From assembly GCF_008831285.2 (NCBI RefSeq), contig NC_045150.1, positions 11,947,868-12,011,867 of the forward strand: 64,000 nt of DNA, given 5' to 3'. This DNA is from Nymphaea colorata (Eukaryota; Streptophyta; Magnoliopsida; Nymphaeales; Nymphaeaceae). The position numbers and the translations under genes were made by a program. Below the pieces are notes generated by a model, which made no database searches, had not been told where the DNA came from, and saw nothing but the letters and a program-made list of their open reading frames with translations. Positions 1,839-35,400 of this stretch are shown here, one piece after another (within the stretch, counting starts at the first letter, position 1; the number at the start of each line of letters is the position of its first letter).

Positions 1839-1851
1839 TTTCTCTCCCTTA
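1839..1851 (-). other. Polypurine tract of the DODA copia element
   Basis: Next to the 3' LTR the minus strand reads AAGGGAGAGAAA, the expected primer site for plus-strand synthesis. Confidence 0.8.
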
Positions 1852-4749: not shown

Positions 4750-5958
4750 CTATATAGTCTCATCAATGTCTTTGAAAAAACTCTTATTACCAGTTATATG
4801 ATTACTGCAGTCGCTATCTACAAACCAAACTTCACTCTTGCAACTGTTAGCATCCATAGTTGTAAGAAATAAATTCTCATTTTCTTCTACAAAACTAGCT
4901 TGTTGTTTTGCCTTTTCAAAACATTTAACTTCTATATGACCAAACTTCTTGCAAAAGTTACATTGTTTTCCTCTAAAGTACTGATTTTGATTACCTTTTC
5001 CTGTTGTGTCATGGGTTTTATGAAAATTTCCATGGAATCTTCCACGTCCTCTACCATAACCACGAGTGACTCCTCTATAGCCTCCTCGTCCTTGACTCCT
5101 TCCTTCATTTCTTTGATCATAGCTTCCATTCTTCTCTTTTGAAAACTCTATCTTTGTTTGGAAAACTTGCTCTATTCCTTTTTCTGTTGACCTGTTCATA
5201 CGTTGCTCATGTGCTAAAAGAGACCCCATTGGTTCATCAATAGAATAAATAGACAAATCTTTGGATTCTTCTATTGCAGTGACAACATGATCAAATTTAG
5301 AAGGAAGACTTCTTAACACCTTTTCAACCACCTTTTGCTCGGTTATGGCTTCACCGAAACTCTTCATTTGATTTACAATAGTAGAGAGTGTAGAAAAATA
5401 ATTTTGAACGGACTCACCAGTTTTCATGCAAAATGTTTCAAACTCTCTCCTTAAGATTTGGAGCTTAACTGTAGTAATCTTCTTATCTCCATGAAATTTT
5501 TGTTTGAGGAATAGCCACGCTTCACTTGACTTCTCTGCACCAGCAATAGTTGGGAAGACAGTCTCTGATACAGCCTGCTGCAATACTGAGAGTGCCTTTG
5601 CATCTTTCTTCCGAAATTCCTTAACATCAATTTTCTCTATTGACTTTCCTGCTGCCTTTGATACTTCAGTTTCTGCATAACCATTTTCAACTAACTCCCA
5701 AAGATCTTGTGAAATGAAGTAAGTCTTCATTTTGATACTCCAAAACTCATAGTTCTCACCATTAAAAATAGGCACTAAGGATTGGGATAAATTGAGAGTA
5801 TTTGAATTAGCCACACCAGCTTTCAAAAAATAACTCTTACCAATAGCACGCGATTTGGAGTTCCTTGCTTCTGCAATGCTCCAAGATACTTGAGATGCCC
5901 ACGCAACCTGGCGCTCTGATACCAAGATTGAAGGAAGTCTTTTTAACTCCCACACCAA
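4750..5958 (-). CDS. Copia Gag plus start of protease
   Basis: About 402 codons. A DUF4219/UBN2-type Gag region starts at PIFNGENYEFWSIKMKTYF. It is followed by an RG-rich stretch (GRGGYRGVTRGYGRGRGRF) and one zinc knuckle CX2CX4HX4C (CNFCKKFGHIEVKC, near residue 333). The protease active site appears as VDSDCSNHITG where the family has DSG. The frame ends at TAG about 18 codons later. The only ATG upstream of the conserved Gag region lies inside the 5' LTR (5958), so translation may start in the LTR and cross the primer site. A lost or non-AUG start is the alternative. Confidence 0.85.
   Translation of the reverse strand: MVWELKRLPSILVSERQVAWASQVSWSIAEARNSKSRAIGKSYFLKAGVANSNTLNLSQSLVPIFNGENYEFWSIKMKTYFISQDLWELVENGYAETEVSKAAGKSIEKIDVKEFRKKDAKALSVLQQAVSETVFPTIAGAEKSSEAWLFLKQKFHGDKKITTVKLQILRREFETFCMKTGESVQNYFSTLSTIVNQMKSFGEAITEQKVVEKVLRSLPSKFDHVVTAIEESKDLSIYSIDEPMGSLLAHEQRMNRSTEKGIEQVFQTKIEFSKEKNGSYDQRNEGRSQGRGGYRGVTRGYGRGRGRFHGNFHKTHDTTGKGNQNQYFRGKQCNFCKKFGHIEVKCFEKAKQQASFVEENENLFLTTMDANSCKSEVWFVDSDCSNHITGNKSFFKDIDETI
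5909..5924 (-). other. Primer binding site (initiator Met tRNA type)
   Basis: The minus strand reads TGGTATCAGAGCGCC four bases inside the 5' LTR. TGGTATCAGAGC is the usual copia complement to the 3' end of initiator tRNA-Met. Confidence 0.92.
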
Positions 5959-6282
5959 ACAACACTACAAAAGGGCACGTTAAAATAAAACTTGAAAAGA
6001 CCTCAACACTTTCATTCTTTTTCCACTCTTGGATTACACGCATGGAACTAGTATTTATAGAACAAAAGAAAAAACTACCCACTAATGCCACTTGCCAAAA
6101 AGCAGCTCCATTTTGTGGACACATAACCACTAATTCCTATTTTTATGGCTAAAGAAAAGAAACTAAAAAAAAACCACAACATGTTTACACGATCTCCACT
6201 TCCACCTATTGCTCACACGTTCACATTAACTAACATTTCTCTCCACTTCCACATATTGCTCACACGTTCACATTAACTAACA
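5929..6282 (-). repeat. 5' LTR of the DODA copia element
   Basis: 354 bp, matching the other LTR except for three substitutions and a one-base difference in an A run. It is followed by TTAAC (6283-6287), the second target-site copy. Confidence 0.95.
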
Positions 6283-6297
6283 TTAACATCTTCATAC

Positions 6298-7736
6298 CTA
6301 TGCATAAGAATTATTCAGGAAAAACAATCAACAGAATCAGATTTTCTTCAAGTATAACAATCTTCTAAACTTGTTTTTGGTGCATCAATATGAATGACGG
6401 AGTTCAGATCAAGTGAAAACAGCGGCAACATTGTCAGCATAAAAATAACCACACAAAGAAGCTGTGGTTTCGACAGCACAACACATTTCTGTTAAGTTCT
6501 CCATGTTTGTATAAGCCAAGCTCGACTGAAGCCTATCAAAAGCTTTTAGCCTATAAACAAGAAGTCCCACACTCTAAGTCTATAAGGTTAGTACAACATA
6601 AATCGCATATGAGGAGTTGGTTCAGACTTGTGGCTTCCAAAAGCATTGTTATCAAAGAATGATTGCGATGGGCCGCATATATTCACAAGGATCATAAACT
6701 CAGATTTGAGAAGCGTAGGCTCCACACAGGCTTAAGAACTAATTAGTCCCCAAGAGTACAAACCAAACTCAGGAGTGCCCTACACAAGTTGTTATCAAAG
6801 GAAACGAGAATCCAGAATCTTCTAAATTGTATTCCAAGAAGACCTGTCGTCTCTACATTAAGTTGGTCTCATCAAACATGCTAAACAAGAACAGTGAAAA
6901 GATTCAAAAAATAATGCTATCTATGCGACTATGATTGTCATCTAGAGGCCGAAAGAGCTTATTTGATTTCCAATCAAGTTCCAGGAGCAGAACTCTGGTT
7001 GACATGCCACAAGACATAGCAGGTCTATGTCTGCACAGAGGAAACAGATGCATTGCATTTTCATGTGGAGTGCATTTCGAAGTTTCGAAATGCATTCCGC
7101 CAGCTGCATTTTGTGCATTGATTGACCGGCATTTGGAACCACTTACAAACACCACTGCATGCGGACTACCATCTTATTGGAACCCCGTGTTCCACAGAAT
7201 CAAACAAGCTCAAACTGTTGATATAGTTGGTCAGGCCTTGGCTTTGACACGGACAAACACATTCCATACCCATGAGCATTGTTATTGTTAGAAAACATGT
7301 ATAATATCTGGATCCAAATGACATGTGGATCTGCATCCAGATCCAGATATCATATTGGGTCTTTTCTAGTTAACCCTTCAACATCTCTCTTTTGCTTCTA
7401 CCGTGTGATTCATCCTTCAAAATCTGACAGTTATTTCCAAAAACTGTGTACCTCTGGCTGTTAGAGGACCTGTAGGGTTTTCTGAATGCTAATCCGAGGA
7501 ACAAGAACTGTGTATTCCTATGCCTTCTAGAAAAAAAAATAAAAAATAAAAAAGACTAATGATCATCTATCATCTAAATAAGACGTTGAAATTTCAAATT
7601 TTCTCATTGAATATATAAAAGAGAGCGATAAAATGGAAATGCGTAACAAAATTTGGAGACAACAAGTCTCTTAAATACAACAAGAATAAACCGAAAAAAA
7701 ATATATAACAATAAAACGAGGGTTGAAGAGAGAGAC
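6298..7736 (-). other. DODA: DODA intron 2
   Basis: A GT-AG intron of 1,439 bases. Short open frames at 6904-7291 show no family resemblance. A purine-rich A run near 7530-7550 is the only simple repeat. I see no nested gene or transposon. Confidence 0.7.
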
Positions 7737-8107
7737 CTTCCGTTAAGGAGACTGTCCTTCAGCCATGTATCAAAATCAATGGCCCACTTGGGTGGAGGTG
7801 TACCACCAGGACCTAGGGTCCTCAGGTTGTGGGTGGCACTTCCTGACGCCATGATCAATACACCTTCCTCCCTCAGCGGGCTCAACGCCTTGCCCATGTT
7901 GTAGTGATACTGCCCATCCTTATGAAGCTGAACGGAGAGTTGGCATACGGGTATATCGGCATCCGGGTACATCAGCATCAGCGGCACCCATGCACCATGA
8001 TCCAGTCCCCTGCTCCTCTCCTCTTCCACTTTCTTGAAACCTGCACCCTCAAGCAGCTCCTTCACTCGCATCGCCAGCTCTGGTGCGCCCGGTGCAGGGT
8101 ACTTCAG
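7737..8107 (-). CDS. DODA: DODA exon 2
   Basis: Encodes [15 protein letters not shown] through [11 protein letters not shown] and carries two conserved histidine motifs of the family, DHGAW and SATHNLR. The acceptor is CAG|CTGAAG at 8108/8107 and the donor AAG|GTCTCT at 7737/7736. An in-frame ATG a few codons upstream (MADLAFEQ) lies in intron 1 and is not the start. The exon ends in phase 2, so its last two bases join the first base of exon 3 to make an arginine codon. Confidence 0.9.
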
Positions 8108-8787
8108 CTGCTCAAAGGCAAGATCAGCCATAATCAGACTGGTTTTAGCAACAGCTCTTACTATTTTCAGTCATGAAACCAACAGGGGACACAATAACAT
8201 CATGGATATTTCAAAAGTAATAACATTTATGAACTAAGATGATGCTGCTTGGAGTTCTGTGCAAGAGACTTCAAAGACCATTGCAAACGCCCTCAGCAGT
8301 TTCTTGTCAATTCTGTGGGCTGATGTGGGTAACTGCCCACAGCATCTGCAATCTGGCTCCGCCGCATTATTGCCTAACTATCCTTGTGGATTTTCACCAG
8401 AAATGACATGGGAGTTCTGAAATTAGATACCAACTTTCGTTTGTGTTCGGTTCCAGCTTTATTGCAGGAGCACGGGAGCTCCCTCTTCTCTGGCTCTCAT
8501 ATCTCTGCTTCCTAGCCTTGTTTTCGGCTTGTCTGAAGACTTACTCAAAGAAATATCCTTCATGGTGTTTATGGCCGGCATGCTACCGTATGTTAAATAG
8601 GAAAAAAATGTTTGTCCGAAATGACTTGGAACTCTTCTGCTCCAGTACGATCGTGTTCAAGAAAAATTAACGGGTACCCAACAGCGGGATCGTGTGAACA
8701 TCCCAAAACCATTCACTAGGTGATCAGATAGAGAGCAGTATGGAACACCAAAGCATCCAGAAGGAGATCAGAGAAAGAGAAGGGCAC

Positions 8788-9018
8788 CTGGTACATGGGC
8801 TTGCGGAAGCCGTAGAAATCGTAGATGGTAGGATTGGCGGTGGAGATGACGTTGACGCAGGGCTCGGCTGTCTCCCAATGGCCGGAGATGACCAGAATGG
8901 CTTTGGGTCTCTCCCCGGGCATCACCTTCTCCCTCCATGACTGCAGAAACTTCCTCGCCGGAACCCCGTCGTCAATCGACATCGTAGGCGACCCGTGCGA
9001 TATGTAGAACGTGTCCAT
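8788..9018 (-). CDS. DODA: DODA exon 1 (residues 1-77)
   Basis: Begins at ATG 9018 and encodes MDTFYISHGSP onward, including the SGHWE segment, and ends at MYQ. The donor is CAG|GTGCCC at 8788/8787. The reading frame runs on into the intron, but the family sequence continues [10 protein letters not shown], which starts at 8107. The 231 bases make exactly 77 codons. The start is the only sensible one, since the family begins with this motif. Confidence 0.9.
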
Positions 9019-9035
9019 CTCTCTCTCTCTCTCTG
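9019..9035. repeat. CT microsatellite in the DODA leader
   Basis: About eight CT units directly upstream of the DODA start codon (GA on the coding strand). Such tracts are common in plant 5' leaders. Confidence 0.7.
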
Positions 9036-10200
9036 TGGCGATGGCGGACGCAAATTCGAAAGAACAGAAAGCGAGAAAGCGAGGGGACTGAACTGCAGAA
9101 GAGGGGCAACAAATTTACGCGTTCATATTATTTAACTGTAACATTGGTGGTCGGGCTAGTTGGCACGTTTGGTTTCCATGTGTCTACGTCGGGGTCGTAG
9201 CATCCGGAGGGTTGTTTGGATTGGATTTAAACAATGGGCATTTAATTGAATTCGGATTTAAATAAACATCCAATTAGATTTGGATTCAAATTAGACTTTT
9301 TTTTTTAAATAAAAATTATATATTGAACGCCCCCATGTTATGGACAGCTAATCCAAGTGTACCTTGAAGATGCTTCAATTTTCGGTTAGATTCATGTAAC
9401 AAACTGCCAAATGACCTTTAAAAAAACTTAACCGTGCTCAGTTCATTCATTAGGGAGTTTAATCACTAACTGGCCCGGCCTCGTCCAGCCCCCTTGATGA
9501 TTGTTTATTTGATAATGTAACATTATCGCTATTTTTATTTTTAAAAATTTTTAACATGGTTCAAAATAAAAGATAAAGGAACCGGGTCAAGTCTTGGATC
9601 TCCAGTTTAGACTTTAAACACCAAGCATAACGGGTCCATCATAATGTCAAGCCTGGGCTCAAGCCCAGTAATGCACAGCCTAAATGGCATGCATCTAACA
9701 AGTTATAGGAAAGACATGGGTGTTGGGTTTTAGATACCCAAGGAAGTCTCTTCTTCTTTTCTTCCTTAGGGTCTCGAGTTGCTTCGAGTCAATTTTTGAA
9801 AACCAACATCCCCTCTCTCTCTCTCTCTCTCTCTCTCTAGATATATATATATATATATATACCGTATTTTCATAGTTTATTTTTTCTTTTTAGGGTGAGT
9901 GGTCACCCGTAGTGATAGTGACCTGAGTTTACAAAACTCATACTGCCTCTCAAGTGGCAGCCCAATGCACTAATTTGAATAACACATGGGGGATTCAGGA
10001 GAACGACGTGTCGGTTTTTAAACACTTCTTAAAATCTCTAATAAAATCTTCATTTCTACTATTTTTAACTTTTTGCTGAATTACAACCGATTGAACGAAA
10101 TTGGATCCGGACCAATTTGACAATCTTTTGCAACACCGCTCATTCTGTTTTGGATCCGGACCCATGTATAGAAACGGTATGGTACACTTGTAACATAAAG
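9036..10200. other. Intergenic, with a compound CT/AT microsatellite at 9811-9860
   Basis: AT-rich DNA between DODA and the next features. The one clear structure is a run of CT units that passes directly into a run of AT units at 9811-9860. No exon recognised. Confidence 0.55.
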
Positions 10201-12643: not shown

Positions 12644-14188
12644 TCACTCACTCATCATAACATAATCTTCTTCTTCTTCATCACTTAATACAAGATCAGC
12701 AAGCAGCTCCTCCAACGGTACAGAAGGAACATCTTCTCCATCAGCCATAGATGTCATCTCAGAAGGTTGATATTCTTTGTTTCTGTACAGTGATACATTG
12801 AACCTCATTTCTGGATCTTCCTCCAAATCCTCCAAGAACTTTTCATACTCCATATTTCTCTTATCAATATCTGTCCTGCCCTTGGAAGGATTGTCCACCT
12901 CCATGTCCAAATTTTTAAGTTTCCAAGGACGAACTTTTCCGCGTCTTTTCTGGCGCTTCTCTTCATAGCTCTTCTTCACTAGAACAGCATCTGGAAGACT
13001 AAATCCTTTGTACTTGTCCAGTCCAAGATCATTATTGTTTGCTCCATATAGATCGTAACCAAGTGCATAATCCCCAGGAGCTAGAAGGTGACCAAGGTGT
13101 GTTCTGACATTGAAAATCAAATCATTTTTCCCAAAATCTGACACACGGGCAATTTGCGCATCTGCTAATACATACTTTGCGCCATTAGGAATCGTCCCCA
13201 CATTTGTGGGTTCTATGTCTAGAATCACATATTCAACAAGCTGCCTGCTTGACAATAAGGGTTTAAAAGCAATCCTCCAATACTGGTTCGCATCTAAATA
13301 AGCATGCCTTAAGGTGAATGGATCGAGTAGCATTAAGCTATTGCTGACCTTCATGCACAGGACAAGTGGTCCCAAATTCCCCAGGCCAACAGCAACTTTT
13401 GGGGGAAGGCAGATCAAATCCTCTCTGCAAATTGGACTAATTTCAACAGAAAATGTGTACTTATAGTTATAATTATTGCTCTTTGTATCATGTGAAACCA
13501 GCTGTTTGTCATGCCGACTCCTAATTGGAACTACACTGCCTACAAATTCCACAAATTTTACTGCATGGCTCCTGTTACCAAAGAAGAAGTCAATACCCTC
13601 ATTCATTTGCTTAATTTTTATAGCACGAACGGCTGCATCATGCTTAAGAATTACCTGCTCCAGAAAATAAAAGGTCCTTCTGTGAGCTACATGCTGTCTC
13701 AGTTGCACGGATGCAACCCATTGGTCAGGATTAGCTTGAACTCTAGAGCACGATTCACATAGATGTTCCTGCTGAACATACTCAACAATGTATTCCTGTT
13801 CCAATATTGTGTTATGGTAAACCTCTTTCTTCACTCTCAATTTCACTTTGATTCTCTTAGAGTGTGGCTCAGTCCAAATAAATTCTGCATGTGACAGATG
13901 AACCTTGTTCAAATTCTTGAGCCTCTTAATGCAAAATGTAAGAAGCTCTTTAGATTCCAACTGAGCTTTGATCCACGTTTTGGGTGGCTGCAGATAAGAA
14001 TTACACTCTGGGCAATGGTAGATTATTACATGCTTCTGTAAACCTTCAGTAATGTCAACTTGTGAGCGCAAGCATTTTACACACATATTTGCATTATTTG
14101 GAGTTATGGGAACACCACACATGCAACAAAGAACAGTGCCAACCGTTTGCTGCAACTGGAACATGCCTACAGTTGCTTCAGCAGCCAT
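12644..14188 (-). CDS. NMD3: 60S ribosomal export protein NMD3
   Basis: One uninterrupted frame of 514 residues, close to the usual plant length. NMD3 binds the joining face of nascent 60S subunits and links them to the exportin CRM1/XPO1 for passage through the nuclear pore. It is released late in the cytoplasm. Seen here: the N-terminal zinc-binding cysteines CCMC (21-24), CVKC (36-39) and CPEC (59-62), with CESC further on near residue 140; the conserved SHAEFIWTEPHSKRIKVKL and FYFLEQVILKHDA regions; and a basic stretch KRQKRRGKVRPWK followed by an acidic, hydrophobic tail (VPLEELLADLVLSDEEEED) of the kind that carries nuclear localisation and export signals. The start at 14188 is preceded by a 3' splice site in the leader. 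No damage was seen, so the gene is probably active. Confidence 0.97.
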   Translation of the reverse strand: MAAEATVGMFQLQQTVGTVLCCMCGVPITPNNANMCVKCLRSQVDITEGLQKHVIIYHCPECNSYLQPPKTWIKAQLESKELLTFCIKRLKNLNKVHLSHAEFIWTEPHSKRIKVKLRVKKEVYHNTILEQEYIVEYVQQEHLCESCSRVQANPDQWVASVQLRQHVAHRRTFYFLEQVILKHDAAVRAIKIKQMNEGIDFFFGNRSHAVKFVEFVGSVVPIRSRHDKQLVSHDTKSNNYNYKYTFSVEISPICREDLICLPPKVAVGLGNLGPLVLCMKVSNSLMLLDPFTLRHAYLDANQYWRIAFKPLLSSRQLVEYVILDIEPTNVGTIPNGAKYVLADAQIARVSDFGKNDLIFNVRTHLGHLLAPGDYALGYDLYGANNNDLGLDKYKGFSLPDAVLVKKSYEEKRQKRRGKVRPWKLKNLDMEVDNPSKGRTDIDKRNMEYEKFLEDLEEDPEMRFNVSLYRNKEYQPSEMTSMADGEDVPSVPLEELLADLVLSDEEEEDYVMMSE

Positions 14189-15765: not shown

Positions 15766-16700
15766 ATGAGATGATGAACAATATACTATCATGTTAAAGA
15801 ACTTTATTCAGCTGACAAGGTTGCAGAAGGAAACATTTTTATCATGTTCAAACTTTTTGTTTAGCCATTAGCGGATGGAGATGACGTGATTGTGCATTTG
15901 GTGAAACTCAAATGCCATATGCCATCAGCCCATCACTGTTGTGCCTGTAGGAGAGGGGGCAAAGAAACTGGTTATTAATATGGTGAACTCAACGAATAGA
16001 AAATGAAAGAGATGTTCTTTTAATTTTTATATTACCGATTAGCTATCAGAATTTCAGTTATTTTGTCTTAGACTTCTTATTTGATCAAGAGACTACAGAT
16101 ATGATCTCTTATGTCCATTTAGCAACGAGAACACAGCCCTGTTGTGTTTTGAAATATGTGGTTGTGATGCTTTAGCATATTGGTAGTGCCATGTCTCAAA
16201 TCTGTTCGTTGGAGAAAGAGCCAAATAAATTTATAAGATGCCCCTCATGACCATGTCCTTCATTTATTTTACAAGATTCTATAACACAAGAAGAGACGTA
16301 AAGAATTGAGACAAAACCATTTATTTTACAAGATTCTATAACACAAGAAGAGACGTACAGAATATGAGACAAAACCATTATCCAAACTAAACTATTTACA
16401 AGTAACAATCCGTGTACGAAACACCATTCGGATTGATAGGTTAAAGATACAAGAACACACAATTCAGTGGGGTCTCAAACGACAGAAATTCCCAACTTCT
16501 GAACTCCTTGTTTTGCGCCTGATGCATCCTACTATTAATGAACTATTTTAACAGAAGAGATTTGTCTTCCCTGCGTGCTTTGAGTCTGACCAAGATTCAC
16601 AGGACACTCGGGCCATATGCAGCTCCTTCTACCGCCAATTCGTGGTAATGTCCAGAAAAATGTGGGGGGTTTGTCCAATATTTACAATAGTAAATTGTGA
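15766..16700. other. Intergenic, with a 57 bp tandem repeat at 16263-16377
   Basis: Two copies of TTTATTTTACAAGATTC...GACAAAACCA lie head to tail from 16263 and from 16320. Each contains TTTATT, which is AATAAA on the minus strand and could serve as a poly(A) signal for TFIIIA. Nothing else is recognised. Confidence 0.6.
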
Positions 16701-16709
16701 GGGCAAATG

Positions 16710-19700
16710 TCAATCTTCTTCGTCGGCAAGTAACCACCTCAGATAGTTGTTTCCGTCATCCAGCACGGAGACCGAATCCCCAGAAACAACTCTCTTTCTC
16801 AACAAAGCCTCTGCCGTCACTACCTTCCTCTTCCTACCACCTCTCGCTTTTGAGAGATAATGTTCATCAGCCTCGACAAAATCTTCCTGCGGAGATCATA
16901 CCAACTGGTTATGAATTTTATTTTAACCTGGAAAAGTTGTAGAATGGATTATTTTTCCCAGAAAAAGGGCAGACAACCTAGCAATGAACTTATGCGTTAC
17001 CCCACAGGTACTCTCCGAGAAAAAAGCAACCACAAAAAAAAAAAAACTTTTTTTACTTAGCTAGGTGCACTTTTTGAATACTAGGCAGATGTTTAAAAAA
17101 AGTTCATGTAGAAGAAAATTGCGCAGATGAGATGAGGGTCATTTTTCCATACAAAGTTTGGCTTCTATACAGGGCATATAAAATGCAAAAGAACAAATCA
17201 GAAGTCACCAATCATCGTCATAATTCATAACAATGACAAAGAAACCTGCAAACACACTTACATGTGTACAAGTACGAAAGTGGATTTTCTCATGCCCCTC
17301 CCTTACATGCTTGTAGGCGAATCTTGCCCCACAGCCGCTAACTCTGCAGGCAAAAGCTTGCTGTTGAAGGTGCACAGCTCTGATGTGTTGCATCAGGTTT
17401 GACTTCTGAACAATAGCAACAGAAGAAAAGTCCAAGACATGAGAACCTTAGACTAATCAAGAAGAGAAGACAATGTAACCACACCTAACGTGGAGGGAAG
17501 GTCAAAGTTAACAAACAACTGAAACTTAGTACTCAAATTTTAAGCAAAAAACCTTAAAACAAGTGTGCTTGCACAAGAAAAAGGGAAATCTGAGGATAGC
17601 TACTAATTTGGAAGTGCAAAAGAAAATTATCATCATCTGTTCTCCAGACAAAGTATACAAAAAGAAGTAAAAAAGGGAAGAGGCAATAGTACATTCGAAA
17701 AAGTGTGCTGACAATTTCCTTCAGTGCATTTGATCTTGTTGGCAGCCCCATCTGAGGAACTATGAGTACGCATGTGGCGCTTGATGTTTTTCTTCAGCTG
17801 TTTTGAACCACAGACTTCACAAGAAATGTATCGATGAGAGAACAGTATGTGTTCTTTGAGACATTTACTGCTAGAGAAGAATTTTCCGCAACCAGGTTCA
17901 CTGCAGATCACCTCCACTGAATCCAATTTAACTACATTGGCAATAATTAACACATAATGATCAATACCAGACAGTCAAGGTGAAGCAGATGAACAACTGT
18001 CAGAAACAAAAGCCCAAAGAAGCTGTGTCTATCAGACTACGATATCCACATTCCCTATTCTCGCTCCTCAGCCCACAGACACAAACATATAGCTCATTGT
18101 GCTGACAGGAAGGTACAGACTTGATCTCATGCTGCAGTTACACTCATGAACAATAAGATTCCTCAGCCCATAAGAACAGGCAAAAATAGGAAATGCATAT
18201 CAATAACACTTACCATGTGAATCTGCATGTTTCCTTAACTTAGAAGCATACTTGAACACCTTCCCACAACCAAATTCAGAGCAAACGTGTAGTTCTTTTT
18301 TCTGTTCCAATGGGGTGTCATCACCGTGTAGCTCTTCCACGTGCCGCTTCATGTTAGCTTGCACATTGAACTTTTCACCGCAGTTCTCTACAGGGCACAC
18401 AAAGATTTTCCCTTCATGAGTCAAAAGATGTCGAGTCAAGTGGTCCTTCCTTCTGTAGCAACAGTGACATCCATCTATGGGGCATGCAAATGGGCGCTGG
18501 AAAAAGACATACAAAAGTCTGTTACCGTTACAGCCACAATACAACTAAAAAATGCATATACATGGTGATCTATAGATAAAACTAGGAACTCCAAAGCCAA
18601 CCAGCACAAAATCAAGCACAGGATAAATCAAGTTCCTTTAGTCACAGACATCTCATAGCTGCACAAACAACCCAAGCAGTTGCCATCTCTTCCTGGTGAT
18701 GACAAAGACTTGTTAGTTAATTAGAGAAAAAAATGGTATTGCAGAACAACAATGTCCATCATGTATCGCACTTAATAATGCAAAACAATTATTATTATGT
18801 GCAATCAAATCCAATCCTGTCCTTCCACTCAAATGTAATAGCACTTCCATTTAAACAAATAGAATTGCATAGCGCAGCAAGCAGATGCATGAAACGATAA
18901 ATTATGATCAACAAACCTTAAGTGGCAGCGTGAAAGAGGCGGGAATCAATACACGGCTTGATGGAGCTTCTCAGGAGGTCCCCCACCCTGGTACTGGTCC
19001 ATTCAAGGCATAACTCACCACCTCCTCGCATTTTGGAGTTCTTTATGTGGGATCCAATGCTTCACACTGGCGGCAACCTTTTACACATTACCAATTTATT
19101 CTTGCTAAAACAAGTTAATGGTAATGCAATGCTATCCTGAAATAGATAAACAGAAACTGTGTCAACCTATAACACGCTTATCTCTTGGCCTTTTCACCGT
19201 TTCTTCGGGAAGATTATTTAATCTTCTCATAAATGATAAACAGTTCAGTCTCAAGCACACACTCACTGCACATATGCTCCGTCACCTAGATGTAGACAAA
19301 TAACAAAGAATTTCCTTCTTCCAAAATGATGCTTCCAAATCAGACATCTTCTTAAATATGCAATAACACATCTAACAACATGGAAATTGTGACTCTGAGA
19401 GATATTTTGCTTCCACCCCCAAGAATTACACTTTTAAGGGCTGGTAATAACTACATATGAAAAATTTTCTATTTGTTAACTTCTCCATAAAATCTCCTAA
19501 ATTCCTAATTAAGTCTTCTTGCTCAAATGAACTCAGAAAGAAAACATTATAAAATGGCTTACCTCTAGAGAATGGCTCTGCATATGCTGTTTGAGATAAG
19601 CAGGCTTGCTAAAACTTTTGCCACATTCACTGCAAGTGCAAGTTGTTTGTAACCGTCTTTTCTCTTCATCACTAACTTTTTTCTGAGCCATTTTGTCCTA

Positions 19701-20819
19701 CAAATTAAGCCAACAAAATTCAATACCGAAGACATCACTGTGATATAACTAAGTTACGTAGCCTGTTGTTTGAAGGATTAAAATTCATGTTTCCTCTCCA
19801 CCTTATACCAAAGAAACAAAACCCGGCTTTCAAAATATTCCATTAGTGCCCATGTTATCAAGTCATTAGAATAACTATATTTCACCATCAAATTCAACAA
19901 CCGTATGATTATTCTAAATTAATATTTTGCTGCAGTTCTTTTCTTGATTTCCAAAAGAGGAAGATGGCTGAGACAAACTGAAATAAGGAATCAGCATGAA
20001 AACACAATTTTTGCTGATCTTTTTATTGACCTCTAAAATGGATAGAAAGCTAAATTCTTAATAGACTGAAAAGCTCAGAACAAGATAGGTAGACACGCTG
20101 AAGTTAAGCAGAATATGTTCTCAGGTGGTTTTTCAACATCTCAAAGCACTTTGGACGTTCCATATTGCATGCAAATTTTCATTCTTGACAAGAGCAGGGA
20201 TCTAAACAGTTAGGAATTTAAATAGATTAAATTATCACTAGTACCGGCACTTAATTTAAAGTATGTGTTACAAGCATCAATTTTGATTTACACGGCAACA
20301 TAAACCACAGCTTTTGCAAGTATGCCGCATATTTCGCTCTCCATTTCCTTAGTTGGAACAAAATTGTTTTCTCTTGACAAGAACCACTTCAAGCAAGGAT
20401 AATATGGAATTGGCAAGAAACCGACCTCCCAACTCAACTCACTCCACATGCATGCTTGCACCCACACAAAGGAAACAAACAGATATATCTCAAACATATA
20501 CACAAGATATGGAACATGCCCTCAAAAAAGCGAATGTGATGATTACCTTGTGATGAGAGAGGATGTGTGCAGCGATAAGTGCCTTCTTTGACCTACAAAT
20601 GCCGCAGAACTCGCAGTAATAGCGCCTGATATCCCTAACCACTTTATTCTTCCCGCTTCCGCCTCTTTTCTGCTCCTTCTCCTCCTCATCCGCCTCATCA
20701 TCATCATCATCATCAACTTCCTCTTCTTCTTCTTCTTCTTCTTCTTCTTCTTCTTCTTCTTCTTCTCTTTCACGCTTCATTTCGTTGTCCCTTTCAGCTA
20801 CGCTTTCCTTGGAAACCAT
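16710..20819 (-). CDS. TFIIIA: Transcription factor IIIA (TFIIIA), six coding exons, nine C2H2 fingers
   Basis: Exons: 20819-20547, 19697-19563, 18496-18214, 17931-17693, 17405-17262, 16886-16710, in total 1,251 bases or 416 residues, all with GT-AG introns and agreeing phases. TFIIIA binds the internal control region of 5S rRNA genes to recruit RNA polymerase III and also binds 5S rRNA itself. An acidic Glu/Asp run (about residues 17-50) precedes finger 1 (YYCEFCGICRSKKALIAAH). Finger 2 is in exon 2 (CSECGKSFSKPAYLKQHMQSH), 3-5 in exon 3, 6-7 and most of 8 in exon 4, and the rest of 8 plus 9 (CGARFAYKHVREGH) in exon 5. The C-terminal exon (RGGRKRKVVTAEALLRKRV) matches the plant family's basic tail. 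Intron 2 contains a 5S-rRNA-mimic exon that would switch the gene off when included. No lesion was seen. Confidence 0.95.
18917..19104 (-). promoter_or_regulatory. P5SM: 5S rRNA mimic, alternative poison exon in TFIIIA intron 2
   Basis: On the minus strand GGATCCCACATAAAGAACTCC and then AGTACCAGGGTGGGGGACCT lie in the same order as the 5S rRNA segments GGATCCCATCAGAACTCC and AGTACTAGGATGGGTGACCT. CAGTGTGAA (19069-19061) can pair with TTCACGCTG (18934-18926) to close the structure. An acceptor TTTTAG|CAAGAATAA (19105/19104) and a donor AAG|GTTTGT (18917/18916) would make a 188 nt exon. After TFIIIA exon 2 (phase 0) the third codon of this exon is TAA, and 188 is not a multiple of 3. Plant TFIIIA genes are known to carry such an exon, to which ribosomal protein L5 binds to control splicing. 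The acceptor choice is mine and could be off by a few sites. Confidence 0.88.
20716..20767. repeat. CTT/CAT trinucleotide repeat coding the TFIIIA acidic tract
   Basis: About 13 CTT units flanked by CAT units. On the coding strand they read GAA (Glu) and GAT (Asp). The run length sets the length of the acidic N-terminus and should vary between individuals. Confidence 0.85.
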
Positions 20820-22156
20820 CAAGCCACCTCAGGTTGGAGATTTAAGGAACCATGGAAGGGCAGCACGAACGCAAAACGGAAGAGCGAACGACAAAGGGAG
20901 AATCCTTGATTTTAATCCCTCACATTTTTGGTATCTTATGGGTCGTATTTTGTTGCTGCAACAAAACAAAAGCACGTATAACTAAGCATGAAAATGTCCA
21001 ACTTGACATATGTTTTCTCGTCTCAAACATCCAACTTGACATGTGTTTTCTCTTGTCTCAAACACATATCCAGAGCTATGTCACATAGGTGCGGGGTGGG
21101 GTGCAGGTGTGGGTGCCGGTGCGGCACATCTCATTAAGTGTGGCGGTGCGGCGAGGGTATTTATTATTATTATTATTATTATTATTAATTTATTATTATA
21201 ATATATGCATATATAATATATGACAAAAAATTGTCTATAAACCACAAAATTATCAAATAATAAAATCAAAATTGCAATTTGCAAATCATGATATCATTAT
21301 CAATAATCAATTCAACAAGAAATATACTCTAGTTTTGAGATCACAGTTGCACAAATTTAGTTCAACTTTAAGAATAGGTAGTCTGCATAGTTCCCTTTCA
21401 ATCATAAATGGACAAATGCACATGCGCTTGAATAACACAACTTGATTCACGGTCAAACAAACACACGTACACATTATCTGTCTAAGCAATAACAAAAGTG
21501 GTTTATCTGTCGTCCAAATCATATTGTCTAAGCAAGGATCGTCTTCGAGCGAGAAATATCTTAGTAGTTATTTTACCTAACCATGGTAAGCTTCGGGTGT
21601 AGTTACTGAAACTCAAAATTGTCGCCTTTCACGCTCTCTCGCTTCTGTCCCTCTGTTCTGTGTCGCCTTTCATCGCCCTCTTTCATGAGAGCATAAGGCT
21701 CGAATACTTGCCTTCTCTGCCATTCTGCACGTAGTTTTTGGAAAAGAAAAATGTATAAAAGAACACACCCTCCACTGCCATGGGGTGAACGCCGGAAGTG
21801 CGATACATATATATATACTGACGATAACGAGGCTAATGTGCGTACACAGGAAACACAAAAACAGAGCGCCACTCTAACTACCTTCCTTCCTTAAAGCTAT
21901 GTGAAAAATAAAAGGCTAATGGTCTGTAGATTGTCACCTGATTCTAGAGAGAGAGAAGCGGACGAAGAGAGAGCAGACGCCGCCGGTGGAGGAGAGAGAG
22001 CAGCGGCCGCCGGTGGAGGTAGAAGACGGAGAGAGTGCAGCGGACGCCGGAAGGGAGAGGATGCCGCCAGTGGAGGACAGAGAGAAACGGACGGAGAGAC
22101 AGCGGACGGAGACGAATATCGTGCCCTAAATCGATCTTTCCAGGGACCAAAATGAC
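20820..22156. other. TFIIIA upstream region and intergenic
   Basis: Holds a CTATGTCACATAGGTGCGGG segment at 21076 that looks like the end of an hAT-like element (compare 45546 and 30168), an ATT microsatellite at about 21158-21187, and a purine-rich GGAGAG stretch at 21945-22100. No right end for the element was found and no exon is recognised. Confidence 0.45.
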
Positions 22157-22353
22157 CACCTCGACAGAGATGTGGAAGAGTCGCTGCTGCGGAGGGGAGA
22201 AGAGGAGGCTGAGGAGCGGCTGTGAAGAGTCGGCTGTTTCAACCCTCAAGAGACAACCCTAGTAGAAGTAGAAGGGTCTCCAACGAGGAGAGAGAGTTAA
22301 ACGCGAAAATACAAAAAACAACATCAAACTCATTTTTTATGAAAAATTACAAA
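22157..22353 (-). repeat. Stray copy of the NMD3 leader/promoter segment
   Basis: Matches 14671-14893 in the same orientation over its length, with a few short gaps. No NMD3 coding sequence lies beside it (to its left), so it is an orphan control region. Confidence 0.85.
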
Positions 22354-22590
22354 CGGCCCCTCCCTGCATTACATAAAAATTCGCAAAAATAGTAGGAAAG
22401 TTTTAGACTTTGTTTGAATACACCCCTTTTATGGTTTTTGTCAAAAACTTGGTTTTGTAAAACCAATTTTTGTTTTTTAGTGTTAGGGTAACATAACAAA
22501 AAACATGTTTTAGAAGACTTCCGTTGAAGGGTAGCTGACAAACAGTTATCCTAAATCACAAGGCTAATGGAAACTATCCAGTACTAGTGG

Positions 22591-22591
<1 letters not shown>

Positions 22592-22642
<51 letters not shown>
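22592..22642. repeat. AT microsatellite
   Basis: About 25 uninterrupted AT units. Confidence 0.95.
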
Positions 22643-22644
<2 letters not shown>

Positions 22645-22917
22645 TCAGTTGTTCTCCTCCAATTTAGAGGCATTATTCACTTTTGTTAGTGTCACGAAGT
22701 TTTTTTCCCTTGTTGATCTATGGGCAGGTTGTTTCCATGTCAAAATATATGTCCGCAGTTTGTATTATTATAATTTCCATCAACCCTCTATTGTAAGCCA
22801 AACAGGCATCCTGAAACTTAAAACTAGAGAACTTCGCTTTGCGATTGAACTCAACTCGTTTGATAAATGAGTTAAACGTTGAAGCAACTCTGCCTGTTCT
22901 CTATCATTGCGGTTGCC

Positions 22918-23233
22918 TCAAAATCATCGAATCTACTTTTTAATGTTTTTTGTGGAGACAACAGCTTTTGTTTGAAAGTCGATCTTGGGAGAATGACTAA
23001 GAACATTATGCCCTGTCCTGTAAAGATAAACTGTTAAATATATAAATGTCGGAAGTTTTTACTACGTGGACTCCTGCCAAACAACCTCATCAATTTCTTA
23101 ACGAATTTTTATGATCAAACCGCCCTGCTGCACCAGCACAGCGAAACAAATCTGCAAAAGGGAGAAACCTTCAATAGTAAAGAAGAACATGCAGTAGATA
23201 TAGAGAGAGAGACCAATATGGAGAGTCAAAGAG
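22918..23233. repeat. Direct repeat, copy 1 (copy 2 at 23401-23720)
   Basis: From TCAAAATCATCGAATCT to GAGAGTCAAAGAG, about 316 bases that recur 483 bases further on with scattered substitutions and small indels. Each copy includes a TGTGGAGACAACAGCTTTTG segment and a GAGAGAGAGACC run. Confidence 0.9.
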
Positions 23234-27000: not shown

Positions 27001-29498
27001 TAAATCTTGAGTATCACCATGCACACTGTGAACCAACAGTTGACAATTATTCCATCAGAGTTAATGTGATCAGGCAGCAGTCAGCTGTAAAATCCTCAGA
27101 TAAATCTCAGTTCTAATTGAGCAGCCTAAAATTGAGGATATGGTTCCAGGCTTCCAGCATATCTCACCTTCCACATCAAACTAAATTAACGTGAAGAAGT
27201 TTAGTGTTTTCTAGTCTGTTCTTGCAATATCTACATTTCTTCTCATGGTCGAAAACTGTTTCCATTTCTCCTCCTTGAGAAGTACTTCCTTCAGTCTTCA
27301 ACAATATTCATGAGAATAAATGGTGGTTGATATTCAATCCTGTTAGTCAAGTTGCTAAGACCTTTACCTACATTATAATTATATAATATAATAGATGCCC
27401 ATGAAGCATAATGGTGGTACTGGAGCTTTGGCAGATATAACCTTGCTCATCCATGGTGAAAGATAGAAGGATGAAGAATAGCAAGCTCCAAAAGAGGGAA
27501 GAATTCTCTTAACATATTATGCCTATCCTCAAGGAGCATTAGCCACCAACACTTCATTTACGAGTCAAGGAATTAAGAGATCAATAACCGAGTTTTGGAA
27601 ACACATAAATGACCGAGGAAGAGTAAATGGCTTCACAAATGCTAAAAGATACACAAAAGATGGTTCAACAAGAAGTCTTGAGGCTTAACGGAAGCACTTC
27701 AAGGTAGTGTAATAATGACACGAAAAGTTACCAATTTTAATGATGAAATGCATGAAATAGAAAGGAATTAAAAGAAGGATGCAAGATCCATGAGGAGATA
27801 AACAACAGCTAGGTCCTTTACCAAAAAGAACAAAACAAAATCTAATTACAAGAGAAAATACAGAAAAAGTAACAAAGGAAAAACACAGATGCATACGCAT
27901 TCATGCACAACACAAACACACATGCAAGCATGCATGCACACGTGTGTGCCAATGGATACACCAGGTCCATATTCCTTGTCATACTATGTTATGTCTCAAT
28001 GACAAGTAGGATAGTGAAACATTTCTGCCCAATCTGAGCCTTTAATAGAATGTCTCTTAATGCTATTATGTGCATGCATACATACACACAGGTCCATAGT
28101 GCTTTGGCTAAACGCCATCTAATGTCCAATAAAAGGTACGATTATGACATTTTTGACCAAGCTGAATGTATAGCAGATATCTTTCTTAGCGCATTTTTAA
28201 CCAATAAACATATCTTACATCAAACTAGGTTTTCGAAAGGTTTGAGTTCCTCAAACAAGATTTTTGTGTGATCCCAGTAACTGATTTTTCACCTTTTATA
28301 AAAATATATCAGTATAAAAAAATAACTTAATGTCTTTTACCAAATAAGACATGGATTTTAAATAGCTGTAATGAAGACATAGCTTGATTAATAAAACGTG
28401 AGTAGGTGACCACAAATATTACCTTACACCATAGATAACAAATATGAACTAAAAAAACTTTCTGACAATGAAGACAGATGAGACCAGATAAAAGTTATAT
28501 CGGATTTCAAGACTTACTTGATCCAGGTTCGAGAGACTGTTTGGATCCTTACTGAGAGTCTCATAGAATACTCTTAAATTGTCTCCAGCAGCAGTCTGAC
28601 GGAATCTTACCAAATCAACAACATACAATGCACTGCAAAAAGGTTACCATGTCCATATGTGAATAAGAAGAGAGGCACGATCTCCCTGGATAAGATTAAA
28701 GCACTATAGCCATCTTGACATCATACAAAGTAAAATGAAAACAAGAAAACATGCCTTATATGATATGGCCTGCCTTGTAGGTGATCCTTCCAGAAACCCT
28801 TTCAAAAGTAAAAAAAAAAAGATTAGATGTCACTGCTTTCAATAACTTTGGCATCAACCACTTTGTCAAATGCCAACGGTGATTGCAAAAATAATGATCA
28901 AGTAGGGAAGTAACCTGTCTCCAAAATCGATAACCATCCATTTCCTTATTGTTATCACAAAAAGGTGTGTAAGCAAGAGGTCGACCTTTTATATCCATAT
29001 CATACAGTTCACCCATATCCGCTCTCACAACCTGATCTGCATCAACAAAAATCACCTGCAAAGCAAATAAAGGCGGTCCACAGTGATGCAGGTTTTATAC
29101 CCAAAAAGGGACAGAAACCACCATAATGATTATGTGAAGTGCAACTAGCACCTTTTCTAGAGAAAGTGGAAAAATCACATCAAGGAATAAAATTTTGTAC
29201 GCCCAGATGATTCGTTGTTTCTCTGTCTGTTTATGCAGCCAGGTAGGCCATTTATAGGTAATAAGCTCATAATCAAACCCATACTCCTGTGCCATATGCG
29301 GTATGAAATCCTGTAAAAGAAAAACTAAGTACACATGTATCATCACAGTCAAGGGAGACATGGAAACACCAAACCAAAATAATGGTGAAACAAACCTTAA
29401 ACTGCGGCGACAGATAGTTCTTTATGAACCAAAACTTCACTGGCCGATGGGTGTTCTTAAGGACACTAAGGATCATAATCTTAAGAAAACGCTCATAC
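26575..29498 (-). CDS. UGGT: UGGT exon block 3: catalytic GT24 domain and C-terminus (seven exons)
   Basis: Exons T to Z in my reading: [15 protein letters not shown] (29498-29396), [21 protein letters not shown] (29310-29152), [19 protein letters not shown] with the DAD motif (29055-28915), a 44 nt exon [14 protein letters not shown] (28798-28755), [20 protein letters not shown] (28632-28518), [21 protein letters not shown] (26981-26829) and [17 protein letters not shown] to SRSEL (26748-26575). All introns are GT-AG except the one after the 44 nt exon, which starts with GC (28754-28753). This block carries all the donor-binding and catalytic residues of the enzyme. Confidence 0.94.
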
Positions 29499-32400
29499 CT
29501 ACAATTAGACAGGAAAAGAGCTGGTTGTAGAGGATTCTAAATTATCAAAAAACAGAAAAATGCAAAACTCATACTCAGATGAATACACACACACACACAC
29601 ACACACACACATCCTGTGTGTCTACAAGAAGCAGATCCACACTTTTTGTGTCATTCAACATCACCATACCAACAGTTACAGTTGACACAGCAAGAAGTGG
29701 ATGTTTAACAAAGCCAATAAATTTGTGTCCCCGAGGAATCTTTGCCACCTCACCATCATACACATCTTAGCCACTTCATAGTCAACGAAGGACTTAACAC
29801 ACTACATAGCCAAATAAACACGCTATAAAATTATCAGATGTTTCACTTGAATGTTTCCAGTAAACCATGTCATTCCAAATTTTATTGGGAAGTCAGTTGT
29901 ATAACTTTGTCTATCCCTTCTAAAACTGGGTGATCCAGACCCATGTCCAGCTAAGAGTTGTGGAGTACTGGATCCACATCCTTCTGAATATTTTATTAAA
30001 AAACCATACTAGGGTTTGATAAAAAAAGATATAAACTAAACCAGGACCAGTCGAAGTAAGATCATCTTTTACTTTTATGATTTCCAAAGTAAAATTGAGA
30101 ATCTTAATCAAAACTCACGCCAGGTATCACATAAAACTTCTTTAGACCCTACTGCATACTCCACAAGCTAAGTCACATGGGTACGTGTAAGGTTTAGGTA
30201 CGGGTACGGAGATATGGGTATGGATACGGCAACCTTAGAGAATATGGGTATGGGGGTATGGCAGGACATATAGATGTATATATGCAAAATACATAGAAAA
30301 ATAGAAATGAAAGCAACATTTAATAAACAAGTGATTTAAATAAAAACATGACATGTTAATGAACAACAATTCTAAAAACAGAATGAAAACTAAGTTGGAA
30401 AAAATTAAATCACATAAAATTAAGCAGTTTGGATTGGTTTCAATCTCAAAAGCACCCGACATGTCCTTAATTTTATTTCACGTCCTTCCTTCAGAATTGA
30501 TTGAGAATGTGGGTTAGGTTCGTCTGGAGGTGCAGCATGTCAGAAGCTAGGGATCTAATCGTTGCTGCTTGGGATGTAACTGTGATTAGAAACCCTAGGT
30601 CATGGTCGTCCCCTTCAATTGATGGTCGGTTATGAAGAGTGGTAGTCAGCCTAACTGCAGTTCAGCAAAATGAGAGGCTCAAGAAGACACCATAGGTTCA
30701 AGAAGACATTGTGGACATCGTTGTTTCTGACCCAATGTTGAGTTGAAGTTGTGTTGGTCTGATCAAACATCTTGGAGCCGTTCGAAGTCATGATGAACTG
30801 ATCAGACGTCCCTTGAAGTCGTGTTGACCTGATCAAATGTCTTTTGAAGCCTGTTATCGAAGATAGATGATAAAGGTGAAGGTCAATGACATCTTTTGAA
30901 GCCTGTTATCGATGGTAGATGATAAATCATAAATGTGAAGTCAGTTTGATTTTAACAGATCTTATGTCGCCGGTGTCTCTACTCCTTAGCTTAGCTATTG
31001 TCGCGGAAGTGAATAGAACCAAACAGGCATCCAGTCGCTACTCTCATTCTGAGTAAATATTCAGTTTCTTCTCGGCAAAAATAAATTCAGTTTCTGATCC
31101 GTTTTGACAGATCTTCGAGAAGGTAACAGATTCGACAAGTCTGGTGTTTGGAGTGGTGTCGAAATAGTGTAATTTTTACATCTGCTGTTCATTTTTGCCT
31201 CTTCTTTTTGTTTGTTTTGTTGCTTCTTGTTAACATATCATGTATAGGGAACCGGGTCTGGATCCAGACCCGGTCCCATGGGCACGGGTACCGAGAGTGG
31301 CTCGGTACCCTAGGCGGGTTTCCCTCTTATTTAATCCCACTTATGGTGTAATTGTTGATTAAGTGGAATAACATTTTCTCTCTCCTAGGGTTGCGGTTGT
31401 GCCCCTAGGTTAGAGCTTCTCCATGGTTTTTCACCTCTCTTTGAGGTTTTCCACGTATATTGTGTGTTCCTTCTCTTTCTCTCCATCTTGGTGTGTGTTT
31501 CTACATGGTATCAGAGCCAACGCGTGAGAGATCGTTGGTGTGATAGTCGTGTTTCCGCCGTTTTTTTGCCGCTGCTGTTTCCGCCGTTTTTTCTGCCGCT
31601 GCTGTGCCGTCGCCCTTTGCTGCGCCGCCGCCGTCCAGCGCTGCCAGCTGCGCCGCCACCGTTCAGCGCTGCCAGCTGCACCGCCACCGTCCTGCGCGGT
31701 TGTTCTCTGCTGCGCTGCCACCCTCCAGCGCCGTCGCAGTCCAGCGTCGTCGCCCACTTCAGCGCCGCCGCCGTCCAGCGCCACCGCTGCCCACCGCCGT
31801 CGCTCTCTTCAGCACAGCGCCGCTGCCTCTTGTTTGTCGTCAGTGGTGCTGGGTATTCTTTCTCCTTGGTGATTGTGATGGCCGAAGAGATGTCCCTCAA
31901 GATCGATGATGCCCTAGACTCGGGCAGCAATACCAAGAGCGAGATCTTGCCTGTTCAAGTCACCTCCATCCAGCTGAACAAGGATAACTATCTCTCTTGG
32001 TCGGCTGCCCTAGAAATTGGGATAACCAGTCGTGGCCGCCTGTCCTACATTACTGGGGAGAAGCCTGCACCTTCAAAGACCGATCCGCGATGGGCTACTT
32101 GGGCGTTGGAAGATAGTCAGGTTAAAGTATGGATTATTAGTTCTGTTTCTGCAGATATTCAGCCTTTGATCTTGCGTAAATCGACTGCCTACGACATGTG
32201 GACTGTGCTTGCACGGATGTATGGCCGTAAGAAGAGAGTATTGCGTACGTACCAAATCAAACGGAGCATATACTCTCTTAAACAGGGTGACTTGTCTGTA
32301 GCCGCTTTCTTTGCAGCCCTAAAGACTAAGTGGGAGGAACTTGACTACCATGTGAATGATGACTGGCACTATGGGTCTGATCATGCATTGTACTGGGACA

Positions 32401-35400
32401 AAGAATGGATGGATCGGACGTTTATTTTCCTTGGAGGCTTACGCGATGAATTTGAATCCATTAGGAGCCAAATTCTCAATTGTGACGAGGTCCCCGGAAT
32501 TGAAGAGGTGTATGCCCGTGTGGAATCTGAGGAACAGCGTCGCCAGGTGATGCATATTGACACCAGTCAGGGGAGTTCTCCTTCAGCCTTTGTTAGTCGT
32601 GCTTCTGGGATTGGACAGCGTCCTGTTCGGCGGTGTAGCCATTGCAACAAATAAGGACATTCTGTTGATTTTTATTGGGATCTTCATCCTGAGAGGCGGC
32701 TTGTCCGGGGTCATCCTCCTTCTAGCCGCCGGAGTCCTTCTGTGCCTGAGCCTAGTCAGAGTAGTCCTTCAAATGTTGCCAAATCTAAGCTTTCCACCAA
32801 TCAAATCAAAGAACTGCAAGCGTATATCAACCGGCTGTCTACTACTCAGGAGGATACTTCCACGTCTGAGGGGGCTAAGTTAGCCCAAGCTCTCGTGGCC
32901 ACTAGTGACCAAGGTAATTCCTCACATGGTGATTGGATTGTTGACAGTGGCGCTACGCATCATATGACAGGGGACCCTAAGATGTTCCAAGAATACAAAT
33001 TGTCTTCGGGGCAGCAACATGTATCTATGGCTGATGGTTCTTCTATCTCTGTGGCTGGAAAAGGGAGTTTGTCCTTGTTAAATAAATACTGTCTTCATAA
33101 TGCTCTTCATGTTCCCAATATTCCTGTGAATTTGTTATCTGTCAGCAGTATTACTAAAGAACTCAACTGTAATCTGATCTTTTCTGCTGATCGGTGTTTT
33201 CTGCAGGACTTGGTGACGGGGCAGAAGATTGGGATTGGTTCGGCTATTGATGGACTCTACAGACTGCCTGTGCAGGTTGCGTCCGCTCTTATTTCAGCCA
33301 CTAGTGGACAGTTGTCAGGCATGGAAGACAGATCTACTATTATGCGATGGCACGAGCGGCTTGGTCATCTTCCGTTTCCTTTGATTAAGAAGTTGTTTCC
33401 TAGTTTGTTTCATTCTGTTTCCATGGACTCCTTCACCTGTGAAGTGTGTCAGTTGGCTAAACATGTTAGGGCCTCGTACCCTATTTCATTCAATAAAACC
33501 ACTCGTCCATTTGCTTTGGTTCACTCTGATGTTTGGGGTCATTCGGGAGTACCCACTTGTCGTGGTTTTCATTACTTTATGACCCTTATTGATGATTACT
33601 CCCGTTGTACGTTCGTGTATCTGTTGAAAGAACGTAGTGAAGTTCCCGTTATTGTCAAAAATTTTGTGGCTTTTGTTGAGACTCAGTTTCAGACGTCTAT
33701 CCAAGCTTTTCGCACTGATAATGCTAGAGAGTATGTCTCTCAATCCCTAGATGATTTCTTGAAGAGCAAGGGTATTGTTCATGAAACGTCATGTAGTTAC
33801 ACACCTCCCCAAAATGGCGTGGCTGAACGAAAGAATCGCCATTTGCTTGAGGTTACCCGGGCTCTTCTGTTCCATCGATAGGTTCCCAAGCGCTACTGGG
33901 GTGATGCGCTTCTCACTAGTGCCCACCTTATCAACCGTATGCCTACCCGTGTGTTGCAGGGCCATTCCCCGTACTCTATGCTTTGGCCTACTCAGAATCC
34001 CTGGCCTCTTACTCCTCGGGTGTTCGGGTGTGTTTGTTTCGTTCATGACCATAGTCCCACCCTCAAGAAACTTGATCCTCGGTCTGTCAAGGCTGTCTTC
34101 CTGGGGTATTCCTCCACTCAGAAGGGATACAAATGTGTTGATCCTACCACCTCTAAAGTCTATGTTTCCCGGGACGTCACCTTCCATGAACATGAGGCAT
34201 ACTTTCATGTGAATCCTCTTCAGGGGGAGTATCTAGGGCACAATAGTGAAGAGTATTCCTCAAATCAGTTGATTCAGTTTACGGATTTCTTGGATTACAA
34301 GGCCAGTGACAGTGTGGCAGACACAGTCAGAGATGATAGAGACCGTCACATGGACGAGGGTCTTGTTGATAATCAGCCTACAGCCCGTGATCATTTGTTT
34401 GGCCAGGTGTACAGAAGGAAGAAGACAGATGTGATTGAAAATGTTGATGTAACCAATCCCAATCCTGTGAGTTCCCCGAATGACCCAAGTCTAATCAATG
34501 AAGAGCTTCCTATAGCCCTGCGCAAGGGCACCAGGTCTTGCACTTCTCGTCCTATTCAGAGATTTGTCTCTTATGCGAAATTGAGTAAGAATTACAAATG
34601 CTTTATAACATTCTTGTCTAAGTCTGTTATTCCCAGGTGTGTGGAAGATGCTAGAGAGGATCCTAAATGGCTACAGGCCATGACAGAGGAGATGAATGCC
34701 TTGGCAAAGAATGACACTTGGGAAGTTGTGGATATTCCCAAAGGGACTCATTTAGTTGGTTCAAAGTGGGTGTTCAATGTGAAGTACAAACCAGATGGTA
34801 CTGTGGAAAGGTATAAGGCTCGGCTAGTTGCAAAGGGGTTCAGCCAGAAATATGGTATTGATTATCTTGAAACCTTTGCCCCTGTTGCCAAACTGAAAAC
34901 TGTGAGGGTCATATTAGCACTTGCCGTGGAAAAGGGGTGGAGCATGGATCAACTTGATGTTAAGAACGCATTCTTGAATGGCCATCTAGAAGAAGAGGTC
35001 TGTATGAGTATGCCTCCTGGATATGTTCAAAGCGAAAAATGCTGTCATCTCAAGAAAGCCTTGTATGGATTAAAGCAGTCTCCTAGAGCATGGTTTGAAA
35101 GACTGAGGATAGTGATGAAGACAAATGGATACAAACAGGGAAATGGTGATCACACCCTATTCATTAAGCAGAGAGATGGCCTGGTGAGTCTTCTTCTTGT
35201 GTATGTTGATGATATGATAGTCACAGGTGACGATGAAGAAGAGAAAAAGAAGATGAAGGAGAGGTTAGCTGCTGAATTTGATCTTAAAGATTTGGGTAAA
35301 CTAAGGTACTTTCTGGGGATAGAGATTGCTCAGTCAGAGACAGGGCTGGTTATGAGCCAAAGGAAATACACTCTGGATCTTCTAAAGGAGACAGGCAAAC

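Follow-up and report, generated by a model that had tools for sequence, protein, structure and literature searches.

Does the second intron of the TFIIIA gene in Nymphaea colorata carry the 5S rRNA-mimicking poison exon (P5SM) that ties TFIIIA splicing to ribosomal protein L5 in other plants? The locus that raises this question lies in a stretch of 64,000 nucleotides of genomic DNA, hereafter the window. The plant P5SM/TFIIIA suicide exon was reportedly described by Hammond et al. 2009, Fu et al. 2009 and Barbazuk 2010. According to excerpts of publications on this system, in plant TFIIIA the third exon contains a mimic of 5S rRNA; inclusion of this exon introduces a stop after the first two zinc fingers, and L5 binding leads to exon skipping and full-length TFIIIA (PMC5568362, PMC5972288, PMC6164485, PMC4538838, PMC8617911, PMC12857756).

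Organization of the TFIIIA gene

The TFIIIA gene spans positions 16710–20819 on the minus strand of the window. Splicing of the predicted exons yields six coding exons with GT–AG at all borders and a 416-residue product that ends at a natural stop codon.

20547..20819, minus strand: TFIIIA coding exon 1, finger 1 (splice model)
19563..19697, minus strand: TFIIIA exon 2, finger 2 (splice model)
18214..18496, minus strand: TFIIIA exon, fingers 3–5 (splice model and finger pattern)
17693..17931, minus strand: TFIIIA exon, fingers 6 and 7 and the start of finger 8 (splice model and finger pattern)
17262..17405, minus strand: TFIIIA exon, rest of finger 8 and finger 9 (splice model and finger pattern)
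16710..16886, minus strand: TFIIIA last coding exon with the natural stop (splice model)

A pattern search identified nine C2H2 fingers in the protein (ten lines were listed, with finger 2 matched from two starts), and the protein matches the Pfam family zf-C2H2 with an E-value of 1.1e-24. Among the best 60 of 124 matched PDB sequences, the top entry is the designed finger protein 2i13 (E 3.3e-24), and frog TFIIIA (1tf6, E 6.3e-20) and another TFIIIA (8ffz, E 2.5e-13) are also present. Because the top PDB match is a designed finger protein, the TFIIIA name rests more on the nine fingers and the gene layout than on the PDB ranking. Relatives sought by DNA patterns gave no match in viral or prokaryote contigs, a result with no bearing on rarity. 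A pattern search with a 157-residue TFIIIA stretch gave 35 matches in prokaryote contigs and one in viral contigs, none of which was confirmed as a relative. Exon 1 (20547–20819, minus strand) encodes 16 glutamates followed by 6 aspartates from a TTC/TCA microsatellite.

An uninterrupted 514-residue NMD3 frame (12644–14188, minus strand; Pfam NMD3 E 1.5e-76, PDB NMD3 E 3.7e-137) follows downstream of TFIIIA at a distance of ∼2.5 kb, on the same strand. NMD3 is the 60S ribosome export adapter, and two genes for large-subunit biogenesis are thus adjoining. Elsewhere in the window, long open frames at 1849–5964 (minus strand) and 31389–36176 (plus strand) resemble copia-type retrotransposon proteins, judged by motifs. 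Two frames within 7604–9114 (minus strand) match parts of a LigB-type ring-opening dioxygenase (Pfam LigB). Frames at 28756–29094 and 44089–44505, ∼15 kb apart on the minus strand, match Glyco_transf_24 and UDP-g_GGTase, respectively, and perhaps belong to one UDP-glucose:glycoprotein glucosyltransferase gene with a copia-like element in between.

A predicted cassette exon with an immediate stop codon

Intron 2 of the TFIIIA gene is 1066 nt long, starts with GTAAGC after the finger 2 exon and ends with TTTTTCCAG before the finger 3 exon. A predicted cassette exon resides within this intron.

18917..19104, minus strand: predicted P5SM poison exon, 188 nt, with TAA as the third codon (splice borders, frame and 5S model match)
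19096..19098, minus strand: in-frame stop TAA upon inclusion (splice borders and frame)

The borders of the exon read ...TTGTTTTAG/CAAGAATAA upstream and ...ACTTAAG/GTTTGT downstream (slashes mark the borders), with AG directly before the exon and GT directly after it. Because exon 2 is complete at a codon border (phase 0), inclusion is read as CAA GAA TAA and TAA becomes the third codon of the included exon. The inclusion frame closes after 138 residues, and the exon, at 188 nt, also changes the frame of what follows. Use of a possible inner acceptor, which would start the exon at 19077, leads to a stop as well. An earlier note on this DNA had proposed the segment as an exon with TAA as its third codon, located between the finger 2 and finger 3 exons; from the sequence, the borders agree to the base, the reading from exon 2 yields this stop, and the gene model and the finger mapping place the exon at this site.

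The donor of the poison exon, GTTTGT, differs from the usual GTAAGT, and this unusual form fits regulated use without proving that the site is used. A consensus-like donor, GTGAGT, is also found inside the mimic at 19018–19013 (minus strand), where it is mostly paired in the predicted fold; this pairing might hide it.

Similarity to 5S rRNA

The plant 5S rRNA reference consisted of two sequences, which we take to be an Arabidopsis and a cereal form. Over stretches between nt 25 and 110, this reference is matched by four published oligonucleotides (three in the excerpt of PMC7274563 and one in that of PMC8704621). Two blocks in the exon resemble this reference.

19035..19055, minus strand: 5S-like block 1 (helix III/loop C), GGATCCCA...GAACTCC, with a loop 3 nt longer than in 5S (alignment and fold)
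18967..18995, minus strand: 5S-like block 2 (loop E/helix IV), 25 of 29 bases identical to 5S nt 74–102 (alignment and model match at 18961–19002)

Both blocks lie on the minus strand in the 5S order, with block 1 upstream of block 2. The block 2 region scores 38; the highest score in 60 dinucleotide-shuffled versions of the window is 26, and the rest of the window reaches 22. Block 1 alone is weak: it scores 24, where the shuffles average 23.0 and reach 28, and its weight comes from its place and order. The exon resembles plant 5S beyond chance, with block 2 alone individually significant. Outside the blocks, the similarity is not above chance, as 3921, 978 and 705 of 5000 permutations were at least as good for the stretches to the left of, between and to the right of the blocks, respectively. 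Collinearity with 5S over the full length, which a loose alignment and MAFFT had suggested, was rejected on these three permutation results.

A covariance model of plant 5S, built from only these two sequences, gave a single match in the whole 64 kb up to an E-value of 10. This match, at 18961–19002 on the minus strand, has a score of 18.6 bits and a rough E-value of 0.0049, and the 5S pairs 72–104 and 78–98 are broken in it. With the filters off in intron 2, block 1 (19030–19056) is the second-best of nine matches listed (4.6 bits, E 0.83). The Rfam 5S model RF00001 ranks first in a narrow scan of 18850–19180 up to E 10, where it matches block 2 over model positions 67–109 of 120 only, with 18.2 bits (E 0.27). 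This score is below the cut-off of 38 bits that a 5S rRNA gene would reach over the whole molecule, and RF00001 is absent from two larger Rfam scans (16000–23000 up to E 1 and the whole window at gathering scores). A P5SM family, which may be absent from Rfam 15, gave no match in Rfam 15 scans of 16000–23000 (E 1), the whole window (gathering scores), 19000–19130 (E 5) and 18850–19180 (E 10). Six other Rfam matches in 16000–23000 and 18850–19180 (mir-1277, MIR828, TeloSII_ncR30, SNORA28, MEG3_2 and Yar_1) are all far below their cut-offs and were discarded.

Predicted fold of the exon RNA

The whole exon is predicted to fold with a free energy of −59.8 kcal/mol (z −2.71), and 3 of 200 shuffles are as stable or more stable. 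In this single-sequence prediction, the minimum-energy structure adopts a 5S-like secondary structure, a three-way junction that is closed by pairing between the two ends of the element.

19060..19069, minus strand: closing stem, predicted 5' strand (fold; 291 of 5000 shuffles as long)
18926..18935, minus strand: closing stem, predicted 3' strand (fold)

The closing stem pairs 19069–19060 with 18935–18926 over 9–10 bp. One arm (19060–19028) resembles helices II and III, with a loop that exceeds that of 5S by 3 nt, and the long arm ends in a hairpin resembling helix V, loop E and helix IV. AGUA and GAA, which we take to be the loop E letters, are kept in the long arm. Between 5S and the exon RNA, base changes preserve pairing at the closing pair of helix III (C-G to U-A) and at two pairs of helix IV (U-G to C-G and A-U to G-U). 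The helix V-like stem is equalled in 1236 of 5000 shuffles. A competing pairing of AGGAGGU with ACCUCCU against the helix IV-like stem was rejected, as its ensemble probability is 0.0.

Two further points of the earlier note concern the 5S blocks and the ends of the element. Two 5S blocks are present in intron 2 in the right order, as it had stated, and block 2 is significant, but block 1 is not significant individually. The complementary ends that it had described as able to close the fold can pair over up to 10 bp, but 291 of 5000 shuffles reach a stem of this length, and closure of the fold by these ends is suggestive only.

A predicted hairpin at the 3' splice site

The 3' splice site of the cassette exon is embedded in a predicted hairpin.

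19085..19127, minus strand: predicted two-tier hairpin around the 3' splice site, AG at 19106–19105 (4 of 1000 shuffles as stable or more stable)

The hairpin, which was spotted post hoc and in one sequence, has a predicted free energy of −13.5 kcal/mol. When a fixed stretch was folded at each acceptor, none of 300 shuffles was as stable at this site, compared with 72 to 131 of 300 at the five other acceptors of the gene. Among 1639 sampled minus-strand stretches of 47 nt with a G+C content of up to 0.32, nine are at least as stable. With 60-nt flanks, the outer stem has pair probabilities of 0.63–0.72, compared with 0.28 for a competing exonic hairpin (19092–19087 with 19077–19072). The splice-site hairpin is missing from the single best structure with 60-nt flanks and present in that with 80-nt flanks. 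Excerpts of the literature on TFIIIA, splice-site hairpins and exon skipping in plants, PMC12857756 included, contain no mention of it.

The seven-finger reading frame

According to a review, the inclusion mRNA contains a seven-finger frame further downstream, and there is disagreement over whether seven-finger TFIIIA, the form used by potato spindle tuber viroid, is translated from this mRNA or arises by proteolysis (PMC6164485, section 4 of the excerpt). No AUG-started seven-finger frame is found in the predicted Nymphaea inclusion mRNA with the donor at 18917. Its first in-frame AUG falls within finger 4, and a product started there would have five fingers and 232 residues. Across the acceptors 19104 and 19077 and every GT from 18700 to the exon start, 15 combinations of AUG and splice sites would restore the seven-finger frame, none of them with the donor at 18917.

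These observations can be joined into a reading that we consider unlikely, in which the switch would have an additional RNA gate and would lead to another protein product. Inclusion would be set by the splice-site hairpin against the exonic hairpin together with the 5S mimic, and no AUG-started seven-finger TFIIIA would arise with the predicted donor, so that TFIIIA-7ZF would have to come from cleavage, from use of a different donor or from a start at a non-AUG codon.

Discussion

The segment 18917–19104 is very probably a P5SM poison exon that acts in TFIIIA as an L5-controlled switch. Its splicing in this plant, its binding by L5, the skipping that would follow and what becomes of the inclusion mRNA are inferred from the published system. 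The features testable on sequence agree with the published plant arrangement, and we file it as P5SM. The earlier note had recognized this arrangement, and the nine fingers, the intron, the ordered blocks, the three-way fold, the cassette splice sites and the early stop bear it out. Precedent for the matching position, stop and L5 control is found in excerpts of PMC5568362, PMC5972288, PMC4538838, PMC4374538 and PMC6164485.

In the proposed switch, inclusion of the exon would place a stop three codons in, after fingers 1 and 2, and full TFIIIA would not be made. The exon RNA would fold like 5S rRNA and be bound by L5 that is free of 5S rRNA. L5 binding would cause the exon to be skipped and the full nine-finger TFIIIA to be produced, which would raise 5S rRNA synthesis until L5 is titrated again.

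The Nymphaea exon shares with the plant P5SM/TFIIIA suicide exon the host gene, the position after the first two fingers, the 5S-like sequence and predicted fold, and the early stop. It differs in that the predicted donor leaves no seven-finger frame that begins with an AUG, and in the predicted stable hairpin at its 3' splice site, either of which other plants may share. With 5S rRNA (RF00001), it shares the ordered loop E/helix IV and helix III blocks and the three-way junction, whereas a different outer stem takes the place of helix I, loop C is 3 nt longer, and the helix II/III and helix V arms are separated by extra bases. The engineered HyP5SM splicing cassette follows the same principle, with default inclusion of a premature stop and skipping when L5 is supplied, but is a synthetic cassette designed to respond to rice L5 (excerpt of PMC4538838).

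An inherited P5SM whose regulation was lost in this lineage is improbable. Such decay could account for the unusual donor, the lack of 5S similarity outside the two blocks and the 3-nt extension of loop C, which together with helix II forms the L5 contact on 5S according to the excerpt of a review (PMC6164485). However, the loop E letters, the splice sites, the stop and the predicted fold are retained, and the TFIIIA reading frame is intact.

Still less probable is that TFIIIA rather than L5 reads the element by binding its own gene or pre-mRNA. Block 2 retains 16 of the 18 bases at 5S nt 80–97, a stretch that we take to be the promoter's C box in the 5S gene. The remainder of the internal promoter would be expected between the blocks, and there 5S similarity is not above chance. 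TFIIIA does bind 5S RNA (excerpt of PMC6164485), but splicing control is assigned to L5 in the excerpts of PMC5972288, PMC6164485 and PMC4538838. Insertion of a 5S rRNA pseudogene or a 5S-derived repeat into the intron, with no regulatory role, would explain the genuine 5S similarity, but is hardly credible given that the similarity is limited to the core, another complementary pair replaces the outer helix, the exon borders are usable, the stop is immediate, and the position in the gene matches that of the known element (excerpt of PMC6164485).

The feedback device linking L5 to 5S rRNA synthesis is already known, and the exon would add one more genome to it. This genome would contribute one more natural variant, in which loop C is longer than in 5S, the outer stem has been replaced, a hairpin is predicted at the 3' splice site, and the predicted donor leaves no seven-finger frame with an AUG at its start. 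The lack of this frame bears on the dispute between translation and proteolysis as the origin of seven-finger TFIIIA (PMC6164485, section 4 of the excerpt). Read from raw sequence, the Nymphaea colorata genome very probably carries the known feedback device between L5 and 5S rRNA.
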